From: Anaspis maculata
Taxonomy: Eukaryota > Arthropoda > Insecta > Coleoptera > Scraptiidae
Length of the DNA stretch: 64,000 nucleotides
Direction: 5' to 3'
Assembly: GCA_949128115.1 (NCBI GenBank)
Contig: OX421967.1
Coordinates: 58,230,855-58,294,854 of the forward strand
The notes beneath the pieces are model-generated. The model saw only the letters and a list, made by a program, of their open reading frames with translations. It was not told where the DNA came from and searched no databases. Below, piece after piece: positions 12,321-40,700 of the stretch. Numbering within the stretch: the first letter of the stretch is position 1; each line of letters starts with the position of its first letter. Made by a program: the position numbers and the translations under genes.

Positions 12321-14779
12321 ATCAAATATATTGATTAGAAAAAAAGGGACATTTGAAAAACACGTATCAAAATATGTCTAGATCGAAGATACTGAGTAGT
12401 TTCTGTGCACTTCTCGGTGCAATTATTATGTTGGTATTTCTGTCTTACTGGTGTTGATCCCGAACACCGATCCCGTTGCGCCTATAATAGTATCTAAGTA
12501 TAGATAACCGCCAATACTTGTGAGTAAAACACTTAGGTGTTTGAAAACACCCATGTTAATTTTTCTTATACCTACCTTACCTAATTTGAGAAATTCGAAA
12601 CAATGAATTAATTTCTTGATGATTGTTTCCAGTGCGATCAGTGGATTCCATACTCAGTTTTATGGAATGACGTGAGAATTTCAGGCCGCGATAGGTTAGA
12701 CAGGTAGGTACCTACTTACCTGAGTTTGTGTATACCTATGCACATATCTGCAAGATCATAACTAGAAAACGTATTACCGTCTACTGAGCCGTCTACCCTT
12801 CCAGTCTAGGGCCAGAAGAGCAATTTCTCTCAGCGCAGCTGAGAAAGAACTATGCCGACGCTCAGGGCAAACCTCGGGGCAAACGCTGGTATGGCAAAGA
12901 GCCCTACAAAATGAAAACAGTGTCGTCGTTATTCGCGTCTTCTTCGAGGGCAGCGATGCGGACGGTAGAGGGAGTTAAACAAAACTTCATTCAGGTAGGT
13001 ATATCAGGGTGTATTCAAGCTGCCTATTATACAAGCTAATGCCAGGCCAGCAACCTGGCTACAATAGTGACGGCAGAAGACCCTTAGAAACTACGTAAAT
13101 ACGGAAATGAAATACAAAAGTGTACGTCACCGAGGTTCTTTTCGAGTTATAATCGGCTCCGGTCTGGCTTTTGTGTCCTTCCAGGATCGTAGGCGGCCGG
13201 GTCCCCACTCCTGCCGTAGCGATGCGGCATCCATCAGGTGGCCCAGAATGATGTTACCGACCAGGTCACTTTTATGCCGTTTTGGCGCCACCATTGAAGG
13301 CTTGCGTCGCACCTCGTGCCTCGATGCAGTGCAGTGGACACTGAAATGAAGGAGGAAGTAGGAGGGGGGCCCCCGACCGACGCCGACGTCCCGAAACGAC
13401 ACAAAATACCAGCGGAATGTTAGGCTTCGACAAAATGTGAAGAATAAAGAGAACAATAAATTGACGACGGCGTCAACGACCTCAGATCAGCTGTTCGCCA
13501 TAGGCGTTGATCAATTTCAGTGGCAGGCATTACCACGGTGAAATGCTGGGGGCACAAATATACGAAACATGAGCTGGCCGGAGGCTGAGGGCTGTCCGGC
13601 CAGAATCAAAACTCAACAACGGAGATTTACGATGTTAGCAAAATAATTGAATTACAAAAATGACAAAGAAGGCAAGGCCGACAGCCACACGCCAAACACA
13701 CTTGAACAATGTATGCACTCAGCTTTGGCACGGCGTCTCCGGAGGAAGTGAGAACTCGCTACTGCCGAAGGCCTCGGCGACTGCATCATGACGTCGGGGA
13801 GCATTAATGGTGTCTGTCTGCCGTGCACGGCTGTTGACGCACGGTAGCGCGTTGCACGAGGAGGTCAGTCGAAGCTCAGGCCGGAAACAGACGACGCCCC
13901 AGGGCTGCAGACGGTTTTTGCCCCCCATAAACGGCCTGAAACAACAGACTTTAACCCGACGCTAAAATCCAACGCTAAACGCTCACCTGGAATGCAAGAA
14001 GAGGCGGCCGCGTGAGCCAAATATAGATCGACGTTATCATGTGAAACATTTTTCGGCGACTGTCGCTCCAGTGCTAGATGACAGAGCTACCACTACCATA
14101 ACTCAAAACTCACCGTTCTGCGCACTCCGCACAGGCAGGACCAGAGTGAGCTCGTCCATTTTTGATTTGTCACAAAGTTTTAGCTCATAATGGACGTCAT
14201 GGTCATTTCTAAAGAATACGGCTGCGGCAACAGTTCAACACATTTTTTATAACATTTTATGTGAAACTTTGAAACAAAATTTTTTTCATAGTGCACCTAT
14301 AAAGTTCCTTATCAACATTTCAAACATTTTACCGCAACATGTTTTGGAACAATAGGAGAACATTTTCGGAATGATGTAATTGATGTATCGATAATGAATC
14401 GGTACAAATTTCAAATAATGAGGCGGTAAATATTGAGGAATTGTATTGAAATGTGGGTAGGTATGTTCTGATACATAAGGATGGGGACAGTATCATAAAA
14501 TGTTTCAGAGTATGTTGCCGAGTAAAATGGAAGTAACGAAATTGAGGAATGTTCCGAAACATTGTCGTAAATGTATTTCAATCATTGGATTCCCTCATTC
14601 GAATCGGAATAGTTTTTGAAATGTTTCCTTCCGTCCGAAAATGCTACTTGAGGTTTCTTTCGAGGTTTCTTTCAACATAAATGGAACTGACTTTCTACCT
14701 GTCGTTATCTACCTATTTTGGGCAATGATTCATAAAAAGAAGCATATTCAAAAGATCTACCTATCATATCTAGTAGGTA
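12321..14779. other. Intergenic region between Z2 and MITE B
   Basis: The part at 12830-13990 is distinctly GC-richer than its surroundings (for example GGCGGCCGGGTCCCC around 13192) and contains only short uninterpretable frames. It could be an old retroelement or a regulatory region. The rest is AT-rich and unremarkable. Confidence 0.3.
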
Positions 14780-16195
14780 GGGGAAGAATGCTTTTGTCGG
14801 ACCGATGATGGCCCTCTGCCGATGATGGCCCCCTGCCTGTATTTTTGAAAAACGCGCGCTTTTCGTCTTACTCACCCCCTAGGCTTGTGCATCAAGTCAT
14901 TTCACCTGGCACCACCAACTGTGATAAGTATTTGAACGATTGGATGTGAACAAAGAATTAAAATCAAAATCGACAAGTTTTGATTTAATATAACGGCTTG
15001 GATATGTGATACCTCATGTCTGTCAGAAGCTCAGCTAACGACTGCCCCTAATTTGTGAAATGGAATCACTTATTGCGCGTCAACTCCTGCAATCATTTTC
15101 AGGTTAAAATGAACAACAACAACAAAAGTTCCGAATTTTTGGGCTCAACTATGCGTGGGTGCCTATGATGGACCCACTAGTGGCGTCCTATGATGGACCG
15201 TGGGCCATCAAAGATGTATGCTTTGTAGGTAAATGACCTCCTCATTACATGAGATAGGTACCTAGTTTGGTATAACTCATCGATACCCAACTCATCGACA
15301 GGATAACTTTCCAACATCCAACTCATCTACAAGATAACTCACCGACAGGACAACTCGCCGACAGGACAACTCGCCGACAGGACAACTCGCCGACAAGACA
15401 ACTCGCCGACAAGACAACTCGCCAATAGGACAATTCATCGACAAGAAAGCTCCCACAATAACCCCAAACAACTAACGATAATACTGAAAAAAAATAACAA
15501 AAAAATACTGGGGCCTGACGAGGTCCATATACACGGCTTAGACGTGTCTAAGCTGTTTTCGAATCAAAGAACTTAATTGACCGACTTGATCTGACCGGGT
15601 CTTCAAAAAAATACTGGGACCTGACAAGGTCCATGAATACAATTTTACATTGTCCAAGTTTTTTTTTAATCAAAGAACTTAATTGCCTGACTTGATCTGA
15701 CCGGGCCTTAAGAAAAAAACTGGGACTTTGAAGTTCTTGGAGTTCTGTTATCGATGAGAGAATCGAATATCCTGTGGATGAGTTCGCCTTGTCGACGAGT
15801 TGTCCTGTTGTCTATTGTCTTGTCGGTGTCGGTTTTAGTTAGTGTTCTTGTCGGTGAGTTGTCTTGTCGATGAGTTGGGTGTCGGCAAGTTATCCAGTCG
15901 ATGAGTTTGGTGTCGATGAGTAGGTAATACCAAACCCATTCTTCAAAAATAAGAGAGAGTCCACCATTGGCGCATGGAGGGTGCCATCATGGGCGCATAT
16001 AGGCCTATGATGGCCCTCTTTCCAGTTTGAAGAAAAAACTGCATAGTTTCAGAATATCTGTTTTTTGAAACAATCATTAGTTGAAAACTACAACTAATAA
16101 GGAACATACACATACCAAGCAGGGTTCAAAAAGTGATCAATTGAAAAAGCTATGGAACAACTCCCTTAGGGGGTCCAACATAGGCACACTTCCCC
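14780..16195. mobile_element. MITE B, GGGGAAG inverted ends, TA target duplication, with nested repeat
   Basis: The left end GGGGAAGAATGCTTTTGTCG and the right end, reverse-complemented, GGGGAAGTGTGCCTATGTTG both continue into GACC. TA flanks each side (14778-14779, 16196-16197). The subterminal motif ATGATGGNCC is repeated many times near both ends (14805-14835, 15170-15210, 15960-16020). The central ~670 bp is a separate inverted-repeat block (15270-15935). No transposase is encoded. Confidence 0.75.
15270..15935. repeat. Nested inverted-repeat block with 16-bp minisatellite
   Basis: GGTATAACTCATCGATACCC at the left matches the inverse of the right end (..GATGAGTTTGGTGTCGATGAG). A 16-bp unit GACAGGACAACTCGCC is tandemly repeated about six times at 15345-15440, and reverse-complement units (GAGTTGTCCTGT) occur at 15795-15930. 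Inside, a unit of about 107 bp (CTGACRAGGTCCAT..CTTGATCTGACCGGG) occurs twice in tandem at 15510-15710. The block appears inserted into or carried by MITE B. Confidence 0.7.
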
Positions 16196-16218
16196 TACAT
16201 TTATAGATTTATATTCGC

Positions 16219-18051: not shown

Positions 18052-18884
18052 CATACTAGAGCATGTTAATGAAGAGGGCGCCTTGGTGGCGTTGATGGAA
18101 TAATGTCAAAAGTGACGTTGTCACCTCGGTTGTCACTGTTGACAGTTTGATCATTTTCATTCAACATTATTGACACATAACCCCACAAAGTCAAATGAAA
18201 TAAAGAAAACTGACCGATGTAAAAGAACAAAGGTCGTAAAAGCGCCAAACAGGTGTTGTTTGTTTGTGCTGGGGTGTTCGAATAGGTACGAATGATACGC
18301 TGTTCGTATACGAACACTCGAAACAAACACACTGCATTGATTCCATTCAGAACACGAACACTTGTAACGATAGGTATCTACGAGTTATACGCCAAAACGT
18401 GTCCAAATTCGCGAGTCGTCACCAGTTCGTGGTGACAGCATAAGAGCGTTACCCTTAGTTGTAGGTGAGCATCCCCCGTTCATCGCAGAGGGCACCCCTT
18501 CCGTCATAAAGTGATACCTAACCTTGAGAAACCGTCAAAGTATACGCACCGACTAGATCAAGCTGAATACTCCATAATTCTGCTGCTTCTTTAATTCTGT
18601 AAAAAAATCGTTGCACGAAGGGAAAAAGGAAATTCAAATTGAGCTTAGTACCTAAAGCAGTTTTCGTGTTTTCGTGACATCAAAAATCTTCAAACCGAGC
18701 TTCAACCTGCCAAATTGAGAGGTGTTCATTCTGATGTATGATTTTCTGTATCAGGACCAACTAAGAACATGAAAAATTCAAATAAACGACAATTCTTCAC
18801 CTCAATTTAATTCAAAGTACAATGTCCGCTTTTGATTAAGCCAAAAAAAAAAATTAAATTCACCGACGACGGTTGCTCACTTGA

Positions 18885-20312
18885 TCATACACCCACCGTT
18901 AAGTTCGGATGAACACGTTTCACGTGCGCGATCATATCACACTTTCGTTTGTATTTACAAGAACACGTCGCACAGTTGAACCAAACAATGTCTTCAGGGG
19001 CAGCATGCCTCAACATGTGCTTATCCAGACCGCCCTTGAGTTTGGTTTTGAACGGACAATTCGCACATTGGAACCAAACGATGTCTTCTGCGGCGGCATG
19101 CTTCAACATGTGCGTTTTCAAGTGATAGTTCCGGGTGGTTTTATACAAACATTTTTCACACTGCAACCAAGCAATGCCTTCAGCGGCAGCGACGGCAGCA
19201 TGCAGTTGCAACATGTGCGATTTCAAGTTGTCTTTCCGGGTGGTTTTATGCGAACACTCCGTACAATGGAACCAAACGATGTCTTTGGCGGCAACGTGTT
19301 TCAACATGTGCTGTTTCAAATTGTTCTTGTGTTTGGTTTTGAATGAACAGTCCACACATTGAAACCAAGTGATGTCTTCAGCGGCAGCATGTTGTTTCGA
19401 CACGTGCTGTTTCAAGGCGCTCTTGTGTTTGAATTTAAATGAACATTTTGCACATTGAAACCAAGCGATGTCTTCAGCGGCAGCATGTTTCAACAACATG
19501 TGCTTCCTCAAGTAGCCCTTGTGTTTCGTTTGAAATGAACATTTCCCACATTGCAACCAATCGATTTCTTCAGCGGTGGCATGTTTCAGCATGTGCAATT
19601 TCAAGGTGTATTTTTGGGTAGTTTTATATGAACACGTTGTACAATGTAACAAAACGATGTCCGCAGCGGCGGCATGTTTCAACATGTGCCTTTTCAAAGT
19701 CCCATTACGTTTAGCTTTGAATGAACACTTGGCACATTGAAACCAAACGATGTCTTCAGCGGCAGCGTGTTTCAGCATGTGCGATTTCAAGTTCCCTTTC
19801 CGGATGGTTTCATACGAACACTTTGGACAATGAAACCATTCAATCTCTTTGTGAAAAGCATGAGTCATCATGTGTTCTTCCAGATCCATCTCTCGCTTGG
19901 GTTTGTTTAGGCATGCAGTGTGCGAAAAGTTTTCACCGAAGTCAAATGCATTGCCGCATGCAAGAGCTGCCGAACTATGGGAATCTGTATGTTTCACCAA
20001 GAGCAAAGCGGAACTGGACCTGTATCGGCCACATTGGCAAAGCAATTGATGAAATTCTTCATTAGAAAATAAACTGTGTTCAGCGCGGTCGTCGATCCCA
20101 CCGCGATGTTTGTGTTTGTAATGTTCGTACAAGTCTCGTTTGTAATAACCCTTGAATTTGCAGCAAACGCACGGAAACTGCTCGGGTTCCATGATGGGAT
20201 GAAAGTGTTCTGTCAGGTGAACATTTTTGTGTGCCCTTTGAACGTGGTGTTCTATTTGAAACTCCAGTTCAAACTCATACGAACACTGTTGACACCGATA
20301 CGTTTCCTCCAT
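18885..20312 (-). CDS. Z4: 13-finger C2H2 protein, subfamily B
   Basis: 475 residues from the ATG at 20312 (MEETYRCQQCSYEF), 10 nt after an acceptor (TTTCCAG). The 59-bp intron is 20323-20381 and exon 1 is non-coding, so the in-frame ATG at 20348 is intronic. Finger 3 of the N-terminal module has only C-X1-C (LLCQCGRYRSS) where relatives have C-X2-C, so it probably does not bind zinc normally. Ten array fingers follow with HAAAEDIVWFQC linkers, and some linkers are longer (HAAVAAAEGIAWLQC). The last finger ends KCDMIAHVKRVHPN, followed by a short LTVGV tail. It is the intact paralogue of Z5. Confidence 0.88.
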   Translation of the reverse strand: MEETYRCQQCSYEFELEFQIEHHVQRAHKNVHLTEHFHPIMEPEQFPCVCCKFKGYYKRDLYEHYKHKHRGGIDDRAEHSLFSNEEFHQLLCQCGRYRSSSALLLVKHTDSHSSAALACGNAFDFGENFSHTACLNKPKREMDLEEHMMTHAFHKEIEWFHCPKCSYETIRKGNLKSHMLKHAAAEDIVWFQCAKCSFKAKRNGTLKRHMLKHAAAADIVLLHCTTCSYKTTQKYTLKLHMLKHATAEEIDWLQCGKCSFQTKHKGYLRKHMLLKHAAAEDIAWFQCAKCSFKFKHKSALKQHVSKQHAAAEDITWFQCVDCSFKTKHKNNLKQHMLKHVAAKDIVWFHCTECSHKTTRKDNLKSHMLQLHAAVAAAEGIAWLQCEKCLYKTTRNYHLKTHMLKHAAAEDIVWFQCANCPFKTKLKGGLDKHMLRHAAPEDIVWFNCATCSCKYKRKCDMIAHVKRVHPNLTVGV

Positions 20313-20534
20313 GACGGACGGTCTGGAAAGCCTTTTCATAGACATCATTATTCGATTTCAATTAGGATCTTGGGTACATACGTGTGGAAGATGATTAGAA
20401 GAGCCCAGATTATAACAATTAGTACGAATTTTGATGAATAAATGTAAGAACACTGTAGGTACCTAGATACGACATGCACGATGGAAATGACACCAACTCA
20501 CCAAGGACGAACAACCTACGTGATAACTAGTAAC

Positions 20535-20610
20535 CACCACGCATGTCTTTGCGCACGTCATTATTTCCACGCATAGCCAAGAACAGGCTATAGCGGGTGA
20601 TCGAAAGAAA
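20535..20610 (-). promoter_or_regulatory. Z4 upstream motif block
   Basis: A half-site TTTGCGCACGTCAT and the block CAGGCTATAGCGGGTGATCG lie upstream of Z4. The same order appears before Z5 (30420-30480). The block resembles CAGCTATAGCGAGCGATCGA before Z6 and Z7. Confidence 0.45.
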
Positions 20611-20760
20611 AAGTTGTTCTCGAAATAGGCACGGTCAAACGCACGGAATAGGCGTAAATTGTCATTTCTGTCATTCAATTAATCTGAAAAAATTTCAACT
20701 TGAAGCTTATCTCTAAATTTTTGAAAGCCGATTCATAAATGACGTGTTGTAGGTACAGGG

Positions 20761-21315
20761 TGTTCTCAGTATCGCATTCTGACAGCATCGACGCGACGAT
20801 GAATCAACTCACAAGAATTAATCAAACTATCACCTAGGTACCTACAACTAGTGTAAATAATAAAAATATTCTAGGAGTTCTGAAATCAAGGGTTTATGCA
20901 ATTACCACTTTGTTGCCTCACACTACCAAAAAAAATTTCAAGGCAGTCTTATTTAACCGCTTGGTCAAATAAATTTCACTTGATATTTTTCTTTCAGGTA
21001 GTCGTACCTACAGTTGCAGTAATGAACTGATGCTTATTTGCCAACCTGTTAGACATTTGATGTAATTGGCGAGGTAATTAGTCATCTCTTTGCCACTTTT
21101 ATTGACGACTGTTTGTTTTTTCAGAAAAGCCAGCGTTTCTTGTAAAAAGGAGACATAATTTTCCTGTAATTGACTAATTGGATAATTGGAATGGCTTAAT
21201 TATGATTTTAAACTTTTCAAGTTGGACGAATTGAAAATGTCAAATAATTTGTTAAAGTGCGAAATAATTTCCACTGTTATAGGAGTGGCACTTTCTAGGA
21301 GAGATTTGAAGTGTA
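20761..21315. other. Spacer between the Z4 unit and an LTR
   Basis: AT-rich sequence with no open frame or clear repeat that I can support. Confidence 0.3.
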
Positions 21316-21820
21316 TGTTACGAGCAGCGGTAAACAGTTAAACACGCGATCTTTCTGGACTCTTCCACAGCCGCAGTGTACAAATGCGCGGAGCTCTGGA
21401 GATTTCTAGGGTAAACTCGATGGCGTTAAAATACATGGAGCCTGCAATGATCAATCGAGACACATCTGTCCATTTTGGCAAAGGCGCCGTTCCAAAGCCC
21501 GGCAGAATTATACGGGTAACGTGTGTGATTATTCAGGAATGGTCTAGAAACCGCATATGCCGGGCCACTATGGAATTTGCTGGAAGTAGACAGAAAGTTC
21601 GGGAACACTATTTGGAGGCCTTATATAAGGCATCAGCCGGCAGCTCAGGGCAGTATTGAATTGGAAGACACAGCGAGCGGATGAGCGAGCGATAATCACA
21701 GCGATAATTCAAGTGAATAATTGTTGGCGTGTATTGATTGTAGTACGCAGAAATAAACAGTGTGTGTTTTAAATCGATCGTCTCAATTATATTCGAACCC
21801 GTACGCGAAATAACGTGGCA
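21316..21820 (+). mobile_element. Probable solo LTR of an LTR retrotransposon
   Basis: It begins TGTTACGAGC and has a TATA element (TTATATAAGG, 21621-21630) followed by an AATAAA signal at about 21752, the order expected for U3-R-U5. Diverged matching pieces occur at 31373-31500 (5' part), 33530-33690 (middle) and 34863-34915 (GTATTTATTGTAGTACGCAG..AATAAACA). The 3' limit is uncertain. No internal region adjoins it. Confidence 0.5.
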
Positions 21821-21829
21821 TGTATATAG

Positions 21830-22660
21830 GATGTCACAGTTGCAGCAACAGTACCACTTGAAATTTGTGTAGCAAACTTCACTTTTTTTTTCTGGAAACT
21901 GTTAGGCTCCAAATGGGCCTTGGTGAGCTTGAGAGCTAATCTATTATTGAATTTACTGTCATCAGTGAAAAAAGCCATGATATATTCCCAAGAAGTTCTT
22001 TTGTCATCCTATTGAAAATGGTTAGTCATGAGATTATTTCTAATCGACTTCATTGAAACCGTGGCGGGTTATAATGATATAGTAATTGTTTTCCACCGAG
22101 TATGAACTTGGTTTGGTCTGCCGTCACTCTCAGTAACTTTGCCAACTCCACAAAATTTGAACCTTGGTCTGTAATAACCATTGCAACATCTAATCCAATA
22201 CTTGTCAATTGACTTATGTACTTGTCTAAAATGTCTTTTACTTCATCCCCTTTACAGCTGGTTTCGGTAAATAGGTATCCTAATGGTTGCTTCCAGTTGC
22301 TGTAAATACCTCTAGCCATTATTACAGCAGCTGAACTTGCTGGTGCCGAGGTTTTTCTCTCCCCAGTATCGTGAAAACCAATGATTTCATCATAACCATT
22401 ATAATTATAAAACAAGTTCCTTTTAAGATGAATTTCATCAATACATATTATGCAAACCCTGTCAGCGATGGTCATTTTATCTACTTTTAATTTAAAAAAT
22501 TTGAAAAGGTTCTCATTGATTTCTGTGGTGACTTTAACTTTTTTAACAAATCTTTCTAAAACCGCTTTCGATGGCAAAATGAATGTCTCCTGTAACATTT
22601 TGTGGCAAACCGGGCTAGTCCAGCCCTGTGCCTTATATTTTATTTTTAGGTTTACGCTAA
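21830..22660 (-). pseudogene. P-element-type transposase relic
   Basis: The reading frame from about 22660 down to 22050 (MLQETFILPSKAVLERF.., DRVCIICIDEIHLKRNLFY, IIGFHDTG, VIMARGIYSNWKQPLGYLF, AMVITDQGSNF) matches the RNase-H-like catalytic region of P-element/THAP9 transposases. A second exon (about 22010-21830: DDKRTSWEYIMAFF.., LEPNSFQKKKVKFATQISSG, TVAATVTSYI) matches the following conserved block. An in-frame stop lies just upstream of about 22660, the N-terminal THAP part is absent, and the 3' side runs into the LTR. It is therefore an inactive fragment. Confidence 0.75.
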
Positions 22661-24299
22661 ACTACCGCTCAAGGGTTGGTGTTGAATTATATTCCAAAAT
22701 ACGAGAGAGACTTTTGCCTCAAAAATTTGCCTGGTTTCAAATATTCATAGAGGCCGGGAAGTTATGGATCAATCGGGTTGCGAAATTCATTTCCTGTAAA
22801 ATTCGAGGCGTTATCAAATTGCTAAACTAAACATTTCTAAGTGCTCGGGCATCAATCTCACCCGTCGTGAGAACGCTTTTCCCCCCAAAAAGGTCCGCTC
22901 TGATTGGTCCATAAGACCACGGGAGTATGAGATTAGACGAGTCTATAAGTAGAAGCTAAACGGAAGATAAAAAACTTGACTGGCGACTCGCGACTCGACG
23001 CGGACATTGCATTAATAGTCTATTCACAGCCAATTAACTAAAAGTCACTCAATTTTGGCACCGCGTATGGTCCCGGCTGGGACGCCGCTTGGGCGTCCGA
23101 CGGCCGTAAAATTCCCGAATTTCGAGTAATTATTTCCACAGTATTATCGTTGTAAGACGCCCGCGATTGATTAATTGAACCGCTCGAAGTGTGGAGTGAT
23201 TCACCGTAACACGCGAGACGCGTGTCCGAGCATATTTTGATGAATAAATTACAGACGCGGAACGCGCGATGTTCCCTCGCCAACGCAGAAACCAATCGTC
23301 CTAGAAATATTACCCCTGTGTTTTTACGCGAGTGTCACCCTGTTGGTACCCAGGGTGGATCGGTAACATGAAGTTCTTATTAGTGTGATGTCAACGTATA
23401 AGGTGGAGTCATCGGCAAAACTCCCTCTAGCGAGTAGCGACTCGCTCTGTCTCACTCTGTATCTCTTTCTCTCATATCCCCACCTACGTCATGTGCACGG
23501 GCCATAACGAAGGAACGCCAAAATGGCGCCGTGACAGTATGTTGTATTACTCTCTTACGTCATCAAACGTCACAGCGACAGCTAAGTTTGTATTTGTCTA
23601 CTTAACCTTGATTATTATTATTTCGCCACGAGGCGAGGTGGCTACCAATGTGAATGTTTTCAATACTAGCTTTTATAATAAACCCATGTAGTGTTTGTAC
23701 TTATTATTTTGCTTATTTGAATATATAATGTTTGTTTTGAAAATCTCCCGTTTACCTAACCACTTACCTACCTACCTACCTAACCACCTAACTACATGTA
23801 GACAGATAATTGAGCTGGAGGGTTCTACTCGATTCAAATGCCTCGTCTGCCGGACTCACTAAAACGCCTTTCCGAAGAATTAAAGCCATAAATACTTGAG
23901 CTAAATTGCACGTTACCAACCTAAACTGAAATTCTAGATGTGCCAAGATGGTCTGTTCCCCTCCCCCTATGGATCTGCCTCTCCATGTAAAGTAACTGAG
24001 TCAGTGGTGGCAGTTGTACGTTACTACCCTTAGGATTAAACACCCCCTATCCTGAACGACCACACAGGGTCATCGACCTGCTATAGTTCCCCGAGCAGTC
24101 TGAATTTGTCATAGAACTGCTGATCAATTTTGCTAATTACTTTCAATTTATACTTAAATATTCACCAAAACAACCCCTCGGCGTGCTAGCGAGCCATTTA
24201 TGTATAATTAACCACCGCACGGTGCAGTGCCCTTCTACCTCCCTCATATTTTAGATGTCTTTTTCAAGTGATGCTTCTGTTCTAGGCACTTATTATTAT
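22661..24299. other. Non-coding region with LTR-like features
   Basis: At 22935-22950 GTCTATAAGTAG resembles a TATA box. At 23053 TTTTGGCACCGCG resembles a primer-binding site after an LTR end, so 22800-23050 may be an old LTR. A short pyrimidine-rich run lies at 23440-23480 and CCTACCTACC repeats at 23760-23800. I found no gene. Confidence 0.3.
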
Positions 24300-24514
24300 T
24301 TTGTGACATAACCCCACAAAAGTGAAACGAAATAAAGAAAACTGACCGATGTAAAAGAACAAAGGTCGTAAAAGCGCCGAACAGGTGTTGTTTGTTTGTT
24401 TGTGCTGGGGTGTTCGAATACGAATGATGCGCTGTTTGCCTGTTCGTATACGAACACTTGAAACAAACACACTGCATTGATTCCATTCAGAACACTTGTA
24501 ACGGTAGGTACTTA
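24300..24514. repeat. Segmental duplication unit 2, left piece
   Basis: Matches 18172-18375 (CATAACCCCACAAA.., CCGATGTAAAAGAACAAAGG, TGTGCTGGGGTGTTCG) with small differences, including absence of a GGTA present in unit 1. It continues at 27805 after the 3.3-kb insertion. Confidence 0.8.
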
Positions 24515-25029
24515 AGCCTACCAGAAATACTTCATATTTCGGCATCCCGGGAGAACCGGAGAGATTGGAAACTTATCGGTTCTTCTTTTCGGGATGCTCC
24601 GGCTTACATACAAATGAGGTTCGAAGATTGAATTGTAGAGGGCGTTACGGAGAAGAATCACCTTTGAAGGGGTAACAACCTGAAATAGATCATCTTAAGC
24701 ATTTTGTTGTAGGCATTCAGTTCGAGGCATTCAGCCAAAGTCGACTAACCTGAGGTAGGTCCCAGAGAAGAGAGAAGAGGTCCATCATTCCGAATAGTAC
24801 ACACCCACGAATCCCGCTGCGACATCGAAGAGACCGAGGTAGCTTTCCGGGTGCGTCATTTGCCTTCCAAGGTGGAAAGGGAGTTCTTGTCCGTAAGAAT
24901 TCTGGCAAATCTCCGGGGGTTTAGGATTGGTGAGAAGATTGTGTGTAGTCTCCTGGCCCAGGGTGGAAGACCTCGACAAATGGTGCGACTGACAGGAGAT
25001 GATGTGTTTCCGCCCACCTAGAGGACGAA

Positions 25030-26040
25030 GAGTCAATTCCCTTCACCGATGAGTCTCAGCCCCTTGGGAACGACGCGTGGAAACCCCGGCTGATGTGCCT
25101 TCATCCCCCTGGAGAAAGTCGAGTTGGGACCCTTCGGAGAGACGTGTTTTGGTCCCCTTGGGGGAATGTTTAGTCGAGAACCCTCCAGGTTGAGCTCTGC
25201 GCCTTCTAGAGGCCGATGAGTTGTTACTCTGAGTGGCAACCCCCTCTAGGATGTCGTGTCAGAGCCCTTGGACGTTGAGTCTTGGCCCGCCTCCAGGAGT
25301 CGAGTCAGAACCCTCCGGCGACGAGTTCCAGCCCATTTCCAGGTAGTTGTGCAGAGGCCCCCGATGTTGCGTTTCGATCCGATTCCAAGTCGAAGAGTTT
25401 TTTTTCAACTTCAACTTCAACTTTATTTCTCTCTTTCGACTGAGTATATACAGCATATGAGATAGTCTACACACATTGCCAAGTAACAGCAAGAATAATA
25501 AATGTTTAGAAGCAATAACAATAACAAAAAATAATCAAAAATATCACAGACAAGTTGTACTTACACGGGTCATTCACTCAGTGTATCACAGTCAAAAAAT
25601 TCCTTAACACTAGTTGAGTCCCGTGGAAGTTGCGTTTCGAACTCCCTCTAGGCCGCTGAGTGGAAGCTCTTCTATGACGAGTTTCTGCCCCTTGGAAATA
25701 GACGTGGTGAAACCCCGACTGATGTGCCTCCAGCCCCCTGGAGAAAATCGAGTTGGAACCCTTCGGAGAGACGTGTTTTGGTCCCCTTGGGGGAATGTTG
25801 AGTCGAGAACCCTCCAGGTTGGGTTTTGACCCTCCTAGAGGCCGATGAGTTGTTACTCCGAGTGGCAACCCCCTCTAGGATGTCGTGTCAGAGCCCTTGG
25901 ACGTTGAGTCTTGGCCCGCCTACAGGAGTCGAGTCAGAGCCCTCTGGCGACGAGTTCCAGCCCATTTCCAGGTAGTTGTGCAGAGGCTCTTTCGACGAAG
26001 AGTTTCAATCCCCTTTCAGGTCGATGCGTAGAAACCTCTT
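25030..26040. repeat. Degenerate minisatellite of ~30-bp GAGTC/CCC units in a ~645-bp higher-order repeat
   Basis: The sequence alternates GAGTY-type and CCCYTNGG-type blocks roughly every 30-35 bp. A segment at about 25060-25350 recurs at about 25705-25995 with high identity (for example GGAGAGACGTGTTTTGGTCC at both). The two are separated by the LINE-like tail and unique sequence. No conserved reading frame spans the units. Confidence 0.6.
25395..25600 (-). mobile_element. Short 3' tail of a non-LTR retrotransposon (inferred)
   Basis: Read on the minus strand, the segment ends in AATAAAGTTGAAGTTGAAGT followed by A-rich sequence, a polyadenylation-like signal plus hexamer repeat typical of some LINE tails. 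It interrupts the minisatellite. Confidence 0.35.
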
Positions 26041-28453
26041 GTAACAGGTCTTGAATCGAGACTTTCCATCCCTTGGCCATAAGCTGCAATGTCGGAGTGT
26101 CAAGCCAGGTCCAGCTGTTGGCAGGACAATTATTTACGATTGAACTTTTTTCTATTGAACGAAGGCCACGATCGACACAGGGTCAGGCCTCTACTTCTTC
26201 AGTCACATGCGAAAGATTCCTGGGTGATGAGAATCGTGGTAAAACAAACTAGTATCATACGAGCGTCAAGATCCTAAATCGGCATCCGAAGTAGTACACT
26301 TCACGTACTCCGTCACTAAAACCAAAATTACTGGTTATCCAAAAGGGAACGTAAGGTGGTCAATTAATGTTGTATGTTTCAGACCCAACTTACCGAAAGA
26401 CATTCTTGTATTCAATATATGTGGTACGATTTAAAAGAGGAACTCCGACCGTTGGTAAACCATACCTGGCCCTCGACCACAGTTTATTCCCAGGTGTGTA
26501 TGTGACGATGCAGGTCCAGCCTATCGACGAAGAGGGATGAATATTGCACTTGCAATTCCTTGTTATTCAAGTATTTGTTGTTAGAGAGTGTTGTCGAGGA
26601 GTGTTATCTGTCCACACCTGCAATTGGTAGAAAGTAAATTATTGGGAAAGTGGGAGCTTGCCGAGAACAAACCTGTCTCGTGAGAGTCCGAATTAGAGGT
26701 GGTAACACTACAAAACACACATGAATTCGAATAAATTTGTGAAATAAAACACTTGTTGCAAGGACATAACCTCTAACTGTCTTGACTGTCAACTCCACAA
26801 TGTCAATAAGTTGGTTGTAAAGTAAAAGTTCCTAAAATAATTTCTAGTGTCATACTAGGGCGTTTCAAAAGTTTTGTCAAGGACGCGGGATAATGCGATA
26901 GGCCGATAAGAACAAGTCAAGTCTCAATTAGCTTTCGATTAAATTGACATGCTATCAAGGGTGACTCTTGTGTGGCTCGGGGCTACTCCAGAAACGAGAA
27001 AAATTAGTTTCTACGTTCCCAAGAATAGTCCGAGATCGCGACCGCGAGACCATCTACACTTTCGTGGCAATTCACGGTAAAAAAAGGGAATAGGCCTCCA
27101 CAAAGGCAAGCCATATCAAATTCCTTCCCCAACGGGCAAAAGAGACCACAGCCCAAAAAGAAGCAATGGTTTTTGAAAAGAATGCCACCAAAAGGGAGGG
27201 CTACCACACACATACCGGCCTTAGAGTCTAGATGGATGGGATTACGTTGAGACTCATTTCGTGACTATCTATTGGACCTAATGCTAACCCTAATCGCTTT
27301 CTAACCTAACGGGGAAACTGATGGAAATCGAGGGGGTGCCCAAAGCCACCACAGTGCTCACCTAGAAAGGAAAGAGTTTAAAAGTGGGGGATAGTCGAGT
27401 TAAATAATTTCGAGACGAAGGGAAATAGTGTAATAAGGGGAGAGGTGAGAAAAGATATCAATCGAACTCGACCACACTCTACATTACTCCGTTGCAGTGT
27501 ATTATGAACTGAACAAATAATGTTCTGTGAATTTATTATGGTGTACCGAGTATACTTTCAAATCGTTAGACATAAGAGCCCAACACACTCAACACTTTTA
27601 TAAGAACAACAAAAAGGAGCCCCACAACGAGGTCTACGAAGAGACGAGGACGTTGAGGGAACATCGCTGGGTCGGCGCCCGCATTGCTGATCATCGGCCA
27701 AGCGGTTCCAAAAGCGGGAAAAGTGATTTAATTCAAATAAGTTGAATTGAATGCCAGTATATTGGGTTGCCTACCCATTCAGGGGTACAAGAAGATAGCT
27801 GGCGTCTTCTCAGTACCTACGAGTTATACGATAAAACGTGTTCAGATTTGCGAGTCGTCACCAGTTCGTGGTGGCAGCGTAAACGCGTCACCCTTAGTTG
27901 TAAGCATCCCCCGTTCATCGCGGAGGGCACCACCCCTTTCCGTCATAAAATGATAACCTTGAAAAACCGTCAAAGTATACGCACCGACTAGATCAAGCTC
28001 AATACTCCATAGATCTGCTGCTTCTTTCTTCACTTCTGCATTAAAAAAAATGTTGCACGAAGGGAAAAAGGAAATTCAAATTGAGCTAAGTAAAGCAGTT
28101 TTCGTGACATCAAAAACCTTCAAACTGTCAAATTGAGAGGTGCATACGTTCATATTCTGATGTAAAATGAAATCTCTACCCAAAGTAAAATCTCATGCTC
28201 TACCCATTGTCATTTTTTGTGTTTACTTTCTTGTCAGCCAGCCATCCCAACGTCACTTTTTTCCATTGACAGCCAGTGCTACCATATAGCAAGAAAATCA
28301 CCAGTTACAACCTACTAAGAACATGAAAAGTCCAAATAAACAATTTTTCACTTTTAATTCAATTCAAAGTACAATTCTAATGTCCGCTTTTGATTGGACC
28401 AAAGAAAACCAACAATTCACCGACGGTTGCTCACTTGATCATACACCCACCGC

Positions 28454-30060
28454 TTAGTTCGGATGAACACGTTTCACGTGAGCGATCATATCCCACTTTC
28501 GTTTATATTTACAAGAACACGTCGCACAGTTGAACCAAACAATGTCTTCAGGGGCAGCATGCCTCAACATGTGCTTATCCAGACCGCCCTTGAGTTTGGT
28601 TCTGAATGGACAATTCGCACATTGGAACCAAACGATGTCTTCTGCGGCGGCATGCTTCAACATGTGCGTTTTCAAGTGATAACTCCGGGAGGTTTTATAC
28701 AAACATTTTTCACACTGCAACCAAGCAATGCCTTCAGCCGCAGCGACGGCAGCATGCAGTTGCAACATGTGCGATTTCAAGTTGTCTTTCCGGGTGGTTT
28801 TATGCGAACACTCCGTACAATGGAACCAAACGACGTCTTCGGCAGCAGCGCCAGCGTGTTTCAACATATGGTGTTTCAAATTGTTCTTGTGTTTGGTTTT
28901 GAATGAACAGTCCACACATTGGAACCAAGTGATGTCTTCAGCGGCAGCATGTTGTTTCGACATGTGCTTTTTCAAGGCGCTCTTGTGTTTGAATTTGAGA
29001 GAACATTTTGCACATTGAAACCAAGCGATGTCTTCAGCGGCAGCATGTTTCAACATGTGCTGTTTCAAATTGTTCTTGTGTTTGGTTTTGAATGAACAGT
29101 CCACACATTGAAACCAAGTGATGTCTTCAGGGGCAGCATGTTGTCTCGACATGTGCTGTTTAAGGCGCTCTTGTGTTTGAATTTGAGTGAACATTTTGCA
29201 CATTGAAACCAAGCGATGTCTCCAGCGGCAGCGTGTTTCAACAACATGTGCTTCCTCAAGTAGCCCTTGTGTTTCGATTGAAATGAACATTCCGCACATT
29301 GCAACCAATCGATGTCTTCAGCGGTGGCATGTTTCAGCATGTGCAATTTCAAGGTGTACTTTCGGGTAGTTTTATATGAACACGTTGCACAATGTAACAA
29401 AACGATGTCCGCAGCGGCGGCATGTCTCAACATGTGCCTTTTCAAAGTCCCATTACGTTTAGCTTTGAATGAACACTTAGCACATTGAAACCAAACGATG
29501 TCTTCAGCGGCAGCGTGTTTCAGCATGTGCGATTTCAAGTTCCCTTTCCGGATGGTTTCATACGAACACTTTGGACAATGAAACCGTTCAATCTCTTTGT
29601 AAAAAACATGAGTTATCATGTGTTCTTCCAGATTCGTCTCTCGCTTGGGTTTGTTTAAGCATGCAGTATGCGGAAAGTTTTCACTGAAGTCAAATGCATT
29701 GCCGCATGCAAGAGCTGCCAAACTATGGGAATCTGTATGTTTCACCAAGAGCAAAGCGGAACTGGACCTGAATCGGCTACAGTGGCAAAGCAATCGATGA
29801 TATTCTTCATTGGAAAATGAACTGTGTTCAGCGCGGTCGTCGATCCCACCGCGATGTTGGTGTTTGTAGTGTTCGTACAAGTCTCGTTTGTAATAACCCT
29901 TGAATTGGGAGCAAACGCACGAAAACTGCTCGGGTTCCATGATGGGATGAAAGAGTTCTGTCAGGTGAACATTTTTGTGTGCCCTTTGAACGTGGTGTTC
30001 TATTTGAAATTCCAGTTCAAACTCATACGAACACTGTTGACACCGATACGTTTCCTCCAT
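28454..30060 (-). pseudogene. Z5: frameshifted paralogue of Z4 with duplicated fingers
   Basis: Coding starts at the ATG at 30060 (MEETYRCQQCSYEF) and matches Z4 until a finger at KHKSAL, where a single base is missing between 29161 and 29162 (GCTGTTTAAGG against GCTGTTTCAAGG in Z4). The frame then runs off into NSTCRDNMLP.. and stops at 29065. The rest of the array continues in a second frame down to a stop at 28454. Z5 also has one two-finger unit (168 bp) more than Z4 (FKFKHKSALKKH plus FKTKHKNNLKQH, repeated). N-terminal finger 3 is C-X1-C as in Z4. Probably non-functional, or encodes a short 331-residue protein. Confidence 0.85.
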
Positions 30061-30285
30061 GACGGACGATCTGGAAAGCCTTTTCATAGACATATCATTA
30101 TTCGATTTCAATTAGGATCTTGGGTAGATACCTACATACGTGTGGAAGATTATAAGAAGAGCCCAGATGATCAGATTAGTTCGAATTTTCATGAATAAAT
30201 GTAACACTGTACCTACCTAGATACGACATGCAGAATGAAAATGACACCAGACACCAACTCACCAACGATAAACAACCTACGTGAT

Positions 30286-30385
30286 TTATTGTAGAAAGTT
30301 AAAAATGTCTCTTCTTTTTAACTTTCTACAATAATTTACAAAGACTTCACATAGTTATATTATGGAGAACTTCATCAGAAGATAT
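30286..30385. mobile_element. 100-bp insertion with 12-bp target duplication
   Basis: AACCTACGTGAT occurs on both sides (30274-30285, 30386-30397), whereas unit 1 has it once (about 20511). The insert starts with a hairpin (TTATTGTAGAAAGTTAAAAA paired with TTTTTAACTTTCTACAATAA). The long target duplication suggests target-primed insertion of a small retroposed RNA. Confidence 0.7.
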
Positions 30386-30740
30386 AACCTACGTGATAAC
30401 TAGTAACCACTACGCATGTCCTTGCGCACGACCATATTTCCACGCATAGCTAAGAACAGGCTATAGCGGGTGATCGAAAAAGTTGGTTTCGAAATAGGCA
30501 CTGTCAAACGCACGGAATATCGTAGGTAAATTAATTGTCATTTCTGTCATTCAATTAATCTGAGAAAATTTCAACTTGAAGCTTACCTATCTCTAAATTT
30601 TTGAAAGCCGATTTCGAGGCCGATTTATAAATGTGTTGTACAGGGTGTCTAAGTATCGCATTCTGACAGCACCTACGACACACACGCTTTCATCTATAGG
30701 TAGGTAGGTAGCTCGGTAGGTAGGTAGGTATAAGTATTAT

Positions 30741-34960: not shown

Positions 34961-35006
34961 TAAAATAGGTGTTCATGGCAGATCACCCTTCAATCACACC
35001 AATCGC

Positions 35007-35892
35007 TTAGTTCGGATGAACACGTCTCATATGCCTTTCCATATCCGACTTCCTTTTGCTCTTATACGAACACTTCGCACAGTTGGACCAAACGATGTCT
35101 TCAGGGGCAGCATGTTCCAACAAGTAGTGTCTTTTCAAATGGAACTTATGTTTGGCCTTGAACGAACACTTCACACATTGGAACCAAACGATGTCTTCAG
35201 CGGCAGCGTGTATCAACATGTGCCGTTTCAAGTGGGCGTTCCGTTTGGCTTTATAAGAACAGCTCGCACATTGGAACCAAACGACGTCTTCGACTGCAGG
35301 GTGTTTCAACATGTGCCGTTTCAAACAGGCCTTGTCTTTGGCTTTGAATGAGCACTTCGTACATTGAAACCAAGCGATGTCTTCGGCGGCAGCGTGTTTC
35401 ATCGTGTGCGTTTTCAAGTTCGCACAGTGTTTGGTTTTGAACGAACACTTTGTACACTGGAACCAAACGATGTTTTCAGCCGCAGCGTGTTTCAACATGT
35501 GCCTTTCCAAGCTGTCTTTCCGGGTAGTTTTATGTGAACATTTAGCGCATTGAAACCAAACGATGTCTTCAGCGCCAACGTGTCTCAACATGTGCTGTTT
35601 CAAATTGCTCTTGCGTTGCGATCTGAATGAACAGTTCGCACATTGGAACCAAACGATGTCTTCAGCGGCAGCATGTTTCAACATGTGCCTCTGCAAGCTG
35701 TCTTTTCTGTTGTATTTATGTGAACATTTCGGACAGTGAAACGATTCAGGCGTTTTATGAGCAACATCAGTTGGCATGCGCTTTTTCGAATACCTCTCTT
35801 CCTCGGGTGTCTCCGAAAGTCCAGTGTGCGGGAAGTCTTCAACAAGGTCAACGGATTCGAAATGTAGCAGTTTCGCGAAGGCCGCCAATCGA
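35007..35892 (-). pseudogene. Z6, 3' half (eight C-terminal fingers)
   Basis: The frame resumes after the foldback element as AFAKLLHFESVDL.. and holds eight fingers (FHCPKCSHKYNRKDS to the terminal KRKSDMERHMRRVHPN), with HAAAEDIVWFQC linkers. It aligns residue for residue with Z7. The start given by the longest frame lies inside or beside the transposon and is not a natural start. No stop or frameshift is seen in this half, so the disruption is recent. Together with 42398-42750 it would make a protein of about 410 residues. Confidence 0.85.
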
Positions 35893-36149
35893 ACGTGTGT
35901 GAAGCTAGCTCCACTGGAGCTGGCTCCAACTCTCAGCTCCGCGTGGAGCCCGCTCTAGTACACTCTGAGACACAAGTCAATCAGAGGCAGAGGGAGCGTC
36001 AGGGGGACACAAGTGATAGCCCAACAGTTCCAAAACTTGCGCATGCGCAAAAGCGACATCGAATGCTACGTTTTGCAAACCAATTGCAATAAATGCAGTA
36101 AATAAGGCAAAATATAAAAAAAGTACACACGACACATCCTTTACGAAGG

Positions 36150-37745
36150 GAGTGATGAAAATTATTTCTGTAGTAGGTACTGTTACGTTTCGAACATCAA
36201 AATAATACAAAACAGTGGTTTTAAACTTCTTCCACATAATAAATCGCAATGTCCTTTTGCACATAGATAGCCTATGTTCCGTAGAAGAACTTGTCAAAAG
36301 ATAAAGGGGGCACATCTATTGCGAAGGGGGTAGAAAAAATTATTTCTGAAAAACTGTTGTGTTTCGAACATCAAAATAATTCAAAACAGCGATTTTGAAC
36401 TCCTTCCATATAATAAATCGCAATGTCCTTTTGCACATAGATAGCCTATGTTCCGTAGAAGAACTTGTCAAAAGATAAAGGGGGCACATCTATTGCGAAG
36501 GGGGTAGAAAAAATTATTTCTGAAAAACTGTTGTGTTTCGAACATCAAAATAATTCAAAACAGCGATTTTGAACTCCTTCCATATAATAAATCGCAATGT
36601 CCTTTCGCACATAGATAGCCTATGTTCCGTAGAAGAACTTGTCAAAAGATAAAGGGGGCACATTTATTGCGAAGGGGGTAGAAAAAATTATTTCTGAAAA
36701 ACTGTTGTGTTTCGAACATCAAAATAATTCGAAACAGCGATTTTGAACTCCTTCCATATAATAAATCGCAATGTCCTTTTGCACATAGATAGCCTATGTT
36801 CCGTAGAAGAACTTGTCAAAAGATAAAGGGGGCACATCTATTGCGAAGGGGGTAGAAAAAATTATTTCTGAAAAACTGTTGTGTTTCGAACATCAAAATA
36901 ATTCAAAACAGCGATTTTGAACTCCTTCCATATAATAAATCGCAATGTCCTTTTGCACATAGATAGCCTATGTTCCGTAGAAGAACTTGTCAAAAGATAA
37001 AGGGGGCACATCTATTGCGAAGGGGGTAGAAAAAATTATTTCTGAAAAACTGTTGTGTTTCGAACATCAAAATAATTCGAAACAGCGATTTTGAACTCCT
37101 TCCATATAATAAATCGCAATGTCCTTTTGCACATAGATAGCCTATGTTCCGTAGAAGAACTTGTCAAAAGATAAAGGGGGCACATCTATTGCGAAGGGGG
37201 TAGAAAAAATTATTTCTGAAAAACTGTTGTGTTTCGAACATCAAAATAATTCGAAACAGCGATTATGAACTCCTTCCATATAATAAATCGCAATGTCCTT
37301 TCGCACATAGATAGCCTATGTTCCGTAGAAGAACTTGTCAAAAGATAAAGGGGGCACATCTATTGCGAAGGGGGTAGAAAAAATTATTTCTGAAAAACTG
37401 TTGTGTTTCGAACATCAAAATAATTCAAAACAGCGATTTTGAACTCCTTTCATATAATAAATCGCAATGTCCTTTCGCACATAGATAGCCTATGTTCCGT
37501 AGAAGAACTTGTCAAAAGATAAAGGGGGCACATCTATTGCGAAGGGGGTAGAAAAAATTATTTCTGAAAAACTGTTGTGTTTCGAACATCAAAATAATTC
37601 AAAACAGCGATTTTGAACTCCTTCCATATAATAAATCGCAATGTCCTTTTGCACATAGATAGCCTATGTTCCGTAGAAGAACTTGTCAAAAGATAAAGGG
37701 GGCACATCTATTGCGAAAGGGGTAGAAAAAATTATTTCTGAAAAA
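36150..37745 (-). repeat. 174-bp tandem array, left arm, nine copies
   Basis: The landmark GTCCTTTYGCACATAGATAG occurs at 36251, 36425, 36599, 36773 and so on to 37643, every 174 bp. Copies differ by only a few bases. Confidence 0.95.
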
Positions 37746-40700
37746 CTTCGAAACACAACAGTTCTTCAGAAATAATTTTTTCTACCCCCTTCGCAATAGA
37801 TGTGCCCCCTTTATCTTTTGACAAGTTTTTCTACGGAACATAGGCTATCTATGTGCAAAAGGACACTGCGATTTATTATATGGAAGGAGTTCAAAATCGC
37901 TGTTTTGAATTATTTTGATGTTCGAAACACAAGTTTTTCAGAAATAATTTTTTCTACCCCCTTCGCAATAGATGTGCCCCCTTTATCTTTTGACAAGTTT
38001 TTCTACGGAACATAGGCTATCTATGTGCAAAAGGACATTGCGATTTATTATATGGAAGGAGTTCAAAATCGCTGTTTTGAATTATTTTGATGTTCGAAAC
38101 ACAACAGTTTTTCAGAAATAATTTTTTCTACCCCCTTCGCAATAAATGTGCCCCCTTTATCTTTTGACAAGTTTTTCTACGGAACATAGGCTATCTATGT
38201 GCAAAAGGACATTGCGATTTATTATATGAAAGGAGTTCAAAATCGCTGTTTTGAATTATTTTGATGTTCGAAACACAACAGTTTTTCAGAAATAATTTTT
38301 TCTACCCCCTTCGCAATAGATGTGCCCCCTTTATCTTTTGACAAGTTTTTCTACGGAACATAGGCTATCTATGTGCAAAAGGACATTGCGATTTATTATA
38401 TGGAAGGAGTTCAAAATCGCTGTTTTGAATTATTTTGATGTTCGAAACACAACAGTTTTTCAGAAATAATTTTTTCTACCCCCTTCGCAATAAATGTGCC
38501 CCCTTTATCTTTCGACAAGTTTTTCTACGGAACATAGGCTATCTATGTGCAAAAGGACATTGCGATTTATTATATGGAAGGAGTTCAAAATCGCTGTTTT
38601 GAATTATTTTGATGTTCGAAACACAACAGTTTTTCAGAAATAATTTTTTCTACCCCCTTCGCAATAGATGTGCCCCCTTTATCTTTTGACAAGTTTTTCT
38701 ACGGAACATAGGCTATCTATGTGCAAAAGGATATTGCGATTTATTATATGGAAGGAGTTCAAAATCGCTGTTTTGAATTATTTTGATGTTCGAAACACAA
38801 CAGTTTTTCAGAAATAATTTTTTCTACCCCCTTCGCAGTAGATGTGCCCCCTTTATCTTTTGACAAGTTTTTCTACGGAACATAGGCTATCTATGTGCAA
38901 AAGGACATTGCGATTTATTATATGAAAGGAGTTCAAAATCGCTGTTTTGAATTATTTTGATGTTCGAAACACAACAGTTTTTCAGAAATAATTTTTTCTA
39001 CCCCCTTCGCAATAGATGTGCCCCCTTTATCTTTTGACAAGTTTTTCTACGGAACATAGGCTATCTATGTGCAGGAGGACATTGCGATTTATCATATGGA
39101 AGGAGTTCAAAATCGCTGTTTTGAATTATTTTGATGTTCGAAACACAACAGTTTTTCAGAAATAATTTTTTCTACCCCCTTCGCGATAGATGTGCCCCCT
39201 TTATCTTTTGACAAGTTTTTCTACGGAACATAAGCTATCTATGTGCAAAAGGACATTGCGATTTATTATATGGAAGGAGTTCAAAATCGCTGTTTTGAAT
39301 TATTTTGATGTTCGAAACACAACAGTTTTTCAGAAATAATTTTTTCTACCCCCTTCGCAATAGATGTGCCCCCTTTATCTTTTGACAAGTTTTTCTACGG
39401 AACATAGGCTATCTATGTGCAAAAGGACATTGCGATTTATTATATGGAAGGAGTTCAAAATCGCTGTTTTGAATTATTTTGATGTTCGAAACACAACAGT
39501 TTTTCAGAAATAATTTTTTCTACCCCCTTCGCAATAGATGTGCCCCCTTTATCTTTTGACAAGTTTTTCTACGGAACATAGGCTATCTATGTGCAAAAGG
39601 ATATTGCGATTTATTATATGGAAGGAGTTCAAAATCGCTGTTTTGAATTATTTTGATGTTCGAAACACAACAGTTTTTCAGAAATAATTTTTTCTACCCC
39701 CTTCGCAGTAGATGTGCCCCCTTTATCTTTTGACAAGTTTTTCTACGGAACATAGGCTATCTATGTGCAAAAGGACATTGCGATTTATTATATGAAAGGA
39801 GTTCAAAATCGCTGTTTTGAATTATTTTGATGTTCGAAACACAACAGTTTTTCAGAAATAATTTTTTCTACCCCCTTCGCAATAGATGTGCCCCCTTTAT
39901 ATTTTGACAAGTTTTTCTACGGAACATAGGCTATCTATGTGCAGGAGGACATTGCGATTTATCATATGGAAGGAGTTCAAAATCGCTGTTTTGAATTATT
40001 TTGATGTTCGAAACACAACAGTTTTTCAGAAATAATTTTTTCTACCCCCTTCGCGATAGATGTGCCCCCTTTATCTTTTGACAAGTTTTTCTACGGAACA
40101 TAAGCTATCTATGTGCAAAAGGACATTGCGATTTATTATATGGAAGGAGTTCAAAATCGCTGTTTTGAATTATTTTGATGTTCGAAACACAACAGTTTTT
40201 CAGAAATAATTTTTTCTACCCCTTTCGCAATAGATGTGCCCCCTTTATCTTTTGACAAGTTTTTCTACGGAACATAGGCTATCTATGTGCAAGAGGACAT
40301 TGCGATTTATCATATGGAAGGAGTTCAAAATCGCTGTTTTGAATTATTTTGATGTTCGAAACACAACAGTTTTCCAGAAATAATTTTTTCTACCCCCTTC
40401 GCAATAGATGTTCCCCCTTTATCTGTTGACAAGTTTTTTTACGGAACATAGGCTATCTATGTGCAAAAGGACATTGCGATTTATTATATGGAAGGAGTTC
40501 AAAATCGCTGTTTTGAATTATTTTGATGTTCGAAACACAACAGTTTTTCAGAAATAATTTTTTCTACCCCCTTCGCAATAGATGTGCCCCCTTTATCTTT
40601 TGACAAGTTCTTCTACGGAACATAGGCTATCTATGTGCAAAAGGACATTGCGATTTATTATATGGAAGGAGTTCAAAATCGCTGTTTCGAATTATTTTGA

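Follow-up and report, generated by a model that had tools for sequence, protein, structure and literature searches.

The present study concerns a 64,000-nucleotide stretch of the Anaspis maculata genome (C7:58230855-58294854, hereafter termed the window; the assembly comprises 757.8 Mb in 50 contigs) in which the hexamers TAGGTA and TACCTA are abundant. Based on the analyses presented here, most of these hexamers are probably excision footprints of TA-targeting transposons with GG or CC at their ends, most likely of GGGG-ended non-autonomous families served by an unseen transposase. TA-targeting transposons are the likely cause of the scars; judged by the two-base filler and the landing signature, the best candidate source is the GGGG-ended families, and of the possible routes excision is the best known, although a failed integration would look alike; the excision-footprint reading is likely, if short of proof.

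It had originally been predicted that single TA dinucleotides in one of two duplicated segments of the window read TAGGTA or TACCTA in the other. Direct reading and alignment of each pair, with rechecking of coordinates, established that the cited differences are present in the sequence. A clean replacement of plain TA by TAGGTA or TACCTA is found in five pairs (18515/27954, 18649/28091, 18283/24419, 20750/30639 and 30584/20708), while 20456/30210 carries GGTA in one copy and CCTA in the other at one and the same TA. At 30523/20655 the GGTA gain stands but the claimed cleanness does not, an extra AATT duplication lying alongside. The sites, two of which were missing from the original prediction, are as follows:

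18283-18288, forward strand: TAGGTA; plain TA in the paralogue (24419-24420).
18462-18467, forward strand: TAGGTG; plain TA in the paralogue (27901-27902); missing from the original prediction.
18515-18520, forward strand: TACCTA; plain TA in the paralogue (27954-27955).
18649-18654, forward strand: TACCTA; plain TA in the paralogue (28091-28092).
20456-20465, forward strand: TAGGTACCTA; TACCTACCTA in the paralogue (30210-30219), GG against CC at one TA.
20750-20755, forward strand: TAGGTA; plain TA in the paralogue (30639-30640).
30125-30134, forward strand: TAGATACCTA, two units (TA-GA-TA-CC-TA); plain TA in the paralogue (20375-20376); missing from the original prediction.
30523-30528, forward strand: TAGGTA with the adjoining AATT duplication; plain TA in the paralogue (20655-20656).
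30584-30589, forward strand: TACCTA; plain TA in the paralogue (20708-20709).
30697-30730, forward strand: two TAGGTAGGTAGGTA runs in a single orientation, an ordinary microsatellite-like expansion beside single units.
56341-56346, forward strand: TAGATA; plain TA in the paralogue near 62662-62676 and TACCTG in two others.

The TAGGTG at 18462-18467 can be read as a TAGGTA whose final A later mutated to G, and the alignment of the 56341-56346 site and its paralogues would make it one TA changed repeatedly. A third genomic copy of the 18515 site (L016, 77% identical there) is also without CCTA, which indicates a gain at that position.

The specificity of such changes was assessed by an all-against-all comparison of repeat copies over the window and fetched genomic stretches, which yielded 389 distinct insertions or deletions (indels). 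Left out of this table were L029-L048 element-versus-element pairs, alignments of less than 120 bases or less than 75% identity, indels exceeding 40 bases or matching at fewer than eight of ten flanking bases on either side, and the satellite masked at 36160-42130; sites 18649, 20750 and 30523 are absent from it as a result of these exclusions. Indels of three, four and five bases numbered 45, 34 and 7, respectively. Other tetranucleotides did not change at an equal rate, since TA-NN-TA events made up 15 of the 34 four-base indels (including those in L031, L037 and L039, which recur in the polarised set below) and tandem events five. TA-NN-TA accounts for 15 of 29 non-tandem four-base indels as opposed to 0.57% for random deletions, and for 15 of the 19 with two to three bases of microhomology as opposed to an expected 8.6%. 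Nor were the gains confined to existing TAGG runs, as none of the 15 had a neighbouring TAGG or TACC (judged by eye, up to 12 bases on each side). GG or CC was the commonest filler (eight cases), followed by CT (two) and CA, CG, GA, GC and TC (one each). The occurrence of fillers other than GG or CC would suit a TA-specific mutational process that does without transposons, such as the repair of breaks by filling in two bases; such a process must, nevertheless, favour GG/CC approximately four- to six-fold (8/15 against 2/16 dinucleotides or 8.3% by content) and would need to mimic the landing preference of GGGG elements described below. To our knowledge no TA-specific mutational process of this kind exists, and we consider this explanation highly improbable.

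The direction of change was deduced from 40 copies of the GGGG-ended element at 53926-54863 of the window (33,316 aligned bases, 4.3% from consensus). Fourteen distinct four-base insertions comprised six non-tandem TA-NN-TA gains (filler CC twice, and GG, CT, TC and AT), four tandem and four other events, while an extra eight-base gain at a TA reads GGTAGGTA. Only two four-base deletions were found, neither of them TA-NN-TA, together with one 12-base TA..TA deletion which looks like the loss of a repeat unit. The same TA had gained CC in one copy (L102) and AT in another (L103). The polarised insertions without matching deletions, together with the state of L016 at the 18515 site, indicate that TA-NN-TA events are gains. 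With four sites of GG/CC gain over 33.3 kb and a divergence of 4.3%, the gain rate amounts to 2.8e-3 per base per substitution. Given six mutable positions, the density at equilibrium should then be 4.6e-4 per base (1.3e-4 to 1.2e-3), while the excess actually observed is 8.3e-4 per base. Neither an ancient burst nor slippage is required for this density, with the caveat that four events are few.

Abundance beyond the duplicated segments was evaluated in a 200 kb sample (20 stretches of 10 kb taken at fixed points on seven contigs) and in a 258 kb sample consisting of the former plus the window minus its satellite. The 258 kb sample contains 291 copies of TAGGTA and TACCTA combined, where trinucleotide content predicts 76 (z 24.7), and no other XYnnXY hexamer class shows so large an excess; the second is the overlapping ACCTAC/GTAGGT (z 16.8), the remaining TANNTA classes have a z of at most 5.8, and TACAGTA three-base scars are not enriched. 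The window itself holds 50 TAGGTA and 57 TACCTA versus about 8 expected of each, and the 200 kb sample 93 of each versus 27-31 by first- or second-order expectation, an excess which shrinks under third-order expectation (41 and 38). The nine frames of the window assigned to zinc-finger genes (12.3 kb) contain none of its 107 hexamers (p 8e-5 relative to TA counts). TAGATA/TATCTA was entertained as a further strongly enriched class, being high in the window, and was set aside as it is much weaker in the wider sample.

The arrangement of these hexamers bears on whether they merely reflect slippage or loss in an ordinary (TAGG)n microsatellite. Single units account for 227 of the 255 tracts in the 258 kb sample, and of the 21 two-unit tracts 14 mix GG with CC while seven do not; among longer tracts, three are mixed and four are not. 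Head-to-tail copies in one orientation are thus not the general state, and are limited to few arrays. True arrays such as those at 30697-30730 and 23765 do exist, and five of the 34 four-base indels are tandem, as slippage would have it. It does not account for non-tandem TA-NN-TA gains at a distance from existing GG/CC units, nor for the absence of TA..TA four-base deletions in the 40 element copies, and it leaves no room for a flank signature; we therefore hold slippage to be a very unlikely source of the hexamers as a whole. The contention that much of the TAGG 'microsatellite' is a record of excision is supported in part, being probable for the isolated units and not applying to the true (TAGG)n arrays.

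The presumed source elements were also identified, in agreement with the original prediction that GGGG..CCCC elements within TA duplications are present:

1880-2832, unstranded: GGGGA-ended element in a TA duplication.
14778-16197, unstranded: GGGGAAG-ended element whose target TA lies within TAGGTA (left flank TAGG).
53926-54863, unstranded: non-autonomous GGGG-ended element between TA duplications, with terminal inverted repeat (TIR) GGGGAAACCCGCC; 39 further genomic copies were read.
43403-43404, forward strand: plain TA, the empty paralogous site of the 53926-54863 element.

Single GGGG ends lie at 403 and 61141. The paralogue without the 53926-54863 element is 95% identical and reads ACG-TA-TTCGC at the site, which demonstrates that the element duplicated a TA. 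A search with this element returned 45 matches (from the best 40 scored of 166 first-look candidates), and, of 21 copies examined for their ends, the 15 that showed both end motifs all had TA on both sides. The TIR of a second subfamily had 38 matches with at most one mismatch, of which 37 were fetched, the window's own being excluded; two with CA in place of TA were dropped, leaving 35 flanks.

A common landing signature connects these elements to the hexamers. Outward of the TA, 58 GGGG-element flanks, from which sites with GGTA or CCTA had been excluded, prefer C (0.56), then any base but G, then T (0.46). The outer flanks of 227 isolated TAGGTA/TACCTA units score above those of all TAs on this model (area under the curve (AUC) 0.626, p 3.6e-11), with the same enrichment of C and depletion of A and G at position +1, while eight of nine other TANNTA classes have an AUC of 0.37-0.54. 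In addition, GGGG elements are inserted into TAGGTA/TACCTA more frequently than chance would allow: the hexamers occur at 6 of 17 two-sided insertion sites, and GGTA or CCTA adjoins the element on 7 of 42 flank sides versus 1.8% of background sides (p 1e-5) and, in the second subfamily, on 3 of 35 sides (p 0.026).

The same flanks speak to the proposal that TA-targeting families other than the GGGG one, ending in CC or GG (CCGGGTG ends being an example), or a number of unrelated families made most of the hexamers, leaving GGGG elements a minor source. Of 90 candidate inverted-repeat units bounded by TA, 15 start with GG or CC, where dinucleotide content predicts 8.3% (p 0.007), albeit in a set that includes chance and nested matches; CCGGGTG ends do occur; and the fillers CT, TC, CA, CG, GA, GC and AT need other sources in any case. 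The flank enrichment of TAGGTA, by contrast, correlates better with GGGG flanks (0.64) than with CAGGGTG flanks (0.35), that is, those of TACAGGGTG, which prefer T, A and T outward, and the four bases before CCGGGTG are TAGG or TACC in 17 of 73 distinct places (among 100 of 102 matches listed), close to the ordinary 186 of 1037 TANNTA. CCGGGTG contexts were accordingly rejected as preferring TAGGTA, no clear preference being seen. Other families thus appear unlikely as the principal source, and we infer that GGGG elements made most of the scars. The 9-mer TACAGGGTG is itself hugely over-represented (52 in 288 kb, for example in L016, L009, L027 and L111) and sits at or near the ends of many inverted-repeat units, some of which have inverted repeats reaching outside it; one such end lies close to a DDE_3 gene of Tc1 type that is present in many intact copies.

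Certain observations weigh against attributing the hexamers to excision of GGGG elements. In the segment pair, GGTA/CCTA is one indel type among several, ordinary slippage and other indels (TTGT, GAAA, CCAC) being present as well; the filler is other than GG/CC in 7 of the 15 TA-NN-TA indels; and a single copy, L102, holds three of the four sites with a polarised GG/CC gain. The landing signature is neither exclusive nor broad: TAGCTA scores as high (AUC 0.618, p 0.003, n=44), although it would be the expected product if one base per overhang were kept; TAAATA/TATTTA and TAAGTA/TACTTA are weaker positives (p 0.04-0.05); the controls AAGGTA (0.568, p 0.005) and TAGGTT (0.553, p 0.03) are not flat; TAGGTA/TACCTA also exceeds background on the CAGGGTG model (0.567, p 2e-4); and nearly all of the signal is located at position +1. 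As regards the elements' own flanks, four of the seven GGTA/CCTA sides read CCTA outward and may be a duplicated end of the element itself, and CCTA also adjoins 2 of 46 TACAGGGTG ends. Two-unit mixed tracts are GG-CC (TAGGTACCTA) in 11 cases versus CC-GG (TACCTAGGTA) in three, a bias which simple random re-insertion does not predict. TACATA/TATGTA is barely enriched (170 versus 146 in the 258 kb sample) despite the far commoner TACAGGGTG ends, and the 200 kb sample contains four TAGGGGAA, close to chance by base composition according to our own estimate, versus some 127 TAGGTA/TACCTA in excess of second-order expectation.

To these points is added the outcome of a search for a TA filled by an element in one copy and reading TAGGTA in another, for which the joined flanks of 17, and then 15, GGGG insertion sites were used as empty-site queries and the best candidates listed; the first search was dominated by satellite matches of the L035 site. 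Contrary to what had been anticipated, no such pair was seen at five insertion sites. The window's empty site of the 53926-54863 element is a plain TA without footprint, the L035 site gave no match to TASSTA, the L031 and L030 sites gave none to TANNTA with up to three mismatches, and the L032 site had no GG/CC among the 22 satellite monomers listed, which mostly displayed TA-type length changes. The L030, L031, L032 and L035 sites lie in repeats or satellites, many copies of which keep their length across the site. Tandem satellites were noted at C3:58.34-58.39 Mb (spacing of about 440 bases) and C6:77.056-77.069 Mb (about 340 bases), and the single GGGG elements L035 (C3) and L032 (C7) are inserted in DNA matching those monomers. 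A 397-base insert in L048, initially placed at the TA where L031 had gained TATCTA, was dismissed as a filled counterpart after realignment 30 bases away; it lies at consensus position 835 of L048 (C7:54733239-54734876), has CCACGTTT ends and an AT-type duplication in A|AT|T, and so matches the target described for ISL2EU.

The lack of filled-versus-scar pairs at the five sites, a scar excess far above the visible GGGG elements and a landing signature equal to that of real insertions could also arise from abortive or hit-and-run integration, in which the GGGG-family transposase joins or nicks the TA, the reaction is undone early and the host fills in GG or CC, such that scars outnumber elements. 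There is no precedent for us to cite, ordinary excision yields an identical product, and neutral fixation can also let scars outnumber elements; we consider this route improbable compared with completed excision.

An autonomous partner with GGGGAA ends, the existence of which had also been predicted, was not found, and this likewise counts against the excision reading. A TAGGGG..CCCCTA pair was absent from all six Tc1-like DDE_3 loci checked (in stretches of 2.4-2.6 kb), and no facing pairs within 10 kb occurred among 38 matches of one GGGG TIR. DDE_3 genes are plentiful (the best 150 of 2125 candidates were scored). One Tc1-like gene of this kind, with an open frame of 364 residues, accounts for more than 90 of the 150 matches listed, at near-equal scores and with one stop in five of them, and three copies (L017, L049 and L050) are approximately 99% identical; judging by this similarity, the family may represent a recent, possibly active burst. 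A Harbinger-type transposase gene (DDE_Tnp_4 and HTH_Tnp_4) at 7037-8308 on the minus strand of the window was considered as partner and rejected, no clear inverted repeats being apparent within about 2.3 kb on either side.

The excision reading consequently retains TA-specific and polarised gains, GG/CC as the commonest filler, both orientations and the landing signature, while lacking the filled pair and the partner. According to this reading, an element would land at a TA and duplicate it; the transposase would then cut two bases inside each 5' end; the host would join the two 3' GG overhangs, keeping the copy of one strand so as to leave TA-GG-TA or TA-CC-TA; and repeat hits on one TA would build mixed strings. 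We give even chances to the wider proposition that transposase scars rank among the leading sources of new short insertions here, with about half a million TAGGTA/TACCTA sites, a figure extrapolated from the 200 kb and 258 kb samples, near a balance between gain from TA-targeting GG-ended elements and erosion by point mutations. Accounts of excision footprints usually deal with single cases, and no report of genome-wide footprints forming a microsatellite-like class was found in titles and abstract openings, the subscription literature falling mostly outside this scope. If the reading is true, a sequence class filed as microsatellite would serve as a clock from which transposon excision or failed integration could be read. 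Were scars a leading class of small insertion, transposon traffic could be measured from one genome even after the elements vanish, and part of the apparent tetranucleotide microsatellite would have a cause other than slippage. The filler dinucleotide and flank logo provide a testable fingerprint that may be matched to element families in other genomes.

With regard to its setting, the window holds several zinc-finger gene copies (two frames were scanned against Pfam, the rest being recognised as tandem-repeat or alignment copies); the best three relatives of one such protein are from beetles and the remaining ones from other animals, with identities of 20-40% throughout. A 6.5 kb inverted-repeat unit at 35893-42397, the arms of which contain 174-base satellite monomers, splits a 95%-identical paralogue (34967-35892 and 42398-43404 versus 51993-53927); the two parts overlap at 52910-52918, which points to a target duplication of 9 bases by this unit, as in foldback or Mutator-like elements.

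Among known systems, Tc1/mariner elements (Tc3, Sleeping Beauty) are described as targeting TA and leaving two- or three-base 3' overhangs, the repair of which produces TA-overhang-TA (PMC3878927, PMC7827188); a GG-ended element with a two-base overhang is thereby predicted to yield TAGGTA or TACCTA. The 53926-54863 element has the TA target-site duplication (TSD) of this group, and the hexamers have the predicted form and signature, with no filled-versus-footprint pair at five sites; Tc1/mariner footprints have been described for particular elements, whereas here the scar seems to be a leading class of short insertion. PIF/Harbinger and ISL2EU of the PHIS superfamily also move by cut-and-paste at AT-rich targets, with a reported TSD of TWA and of AT within A|AT|T, respectively (PMC4482050); GGGG elements differ in having a TSD of TA with C favoured outside it (GTAC-like). 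For Stowaway miniature inverted-repeat transposable elements in a Triticeae beta-amylase intron, short TIR fragments between TA duplications are recorded, together with multiple footprints at a single site and the later insertion of another element into the TA of an earlier footprint (PMC1925063), the last of these constituting a precedent for re-insertion; that case involves one grass locus and different ends, while here many sites are affected and one two-base filler dominates. The (TAGG)n microsatellite, finally, shares the same letters, and true arrays coexist with the scars, which are distinguished by mostly isolated TA units in both orientations, non-tandem gains and a signature in the outer flanks.

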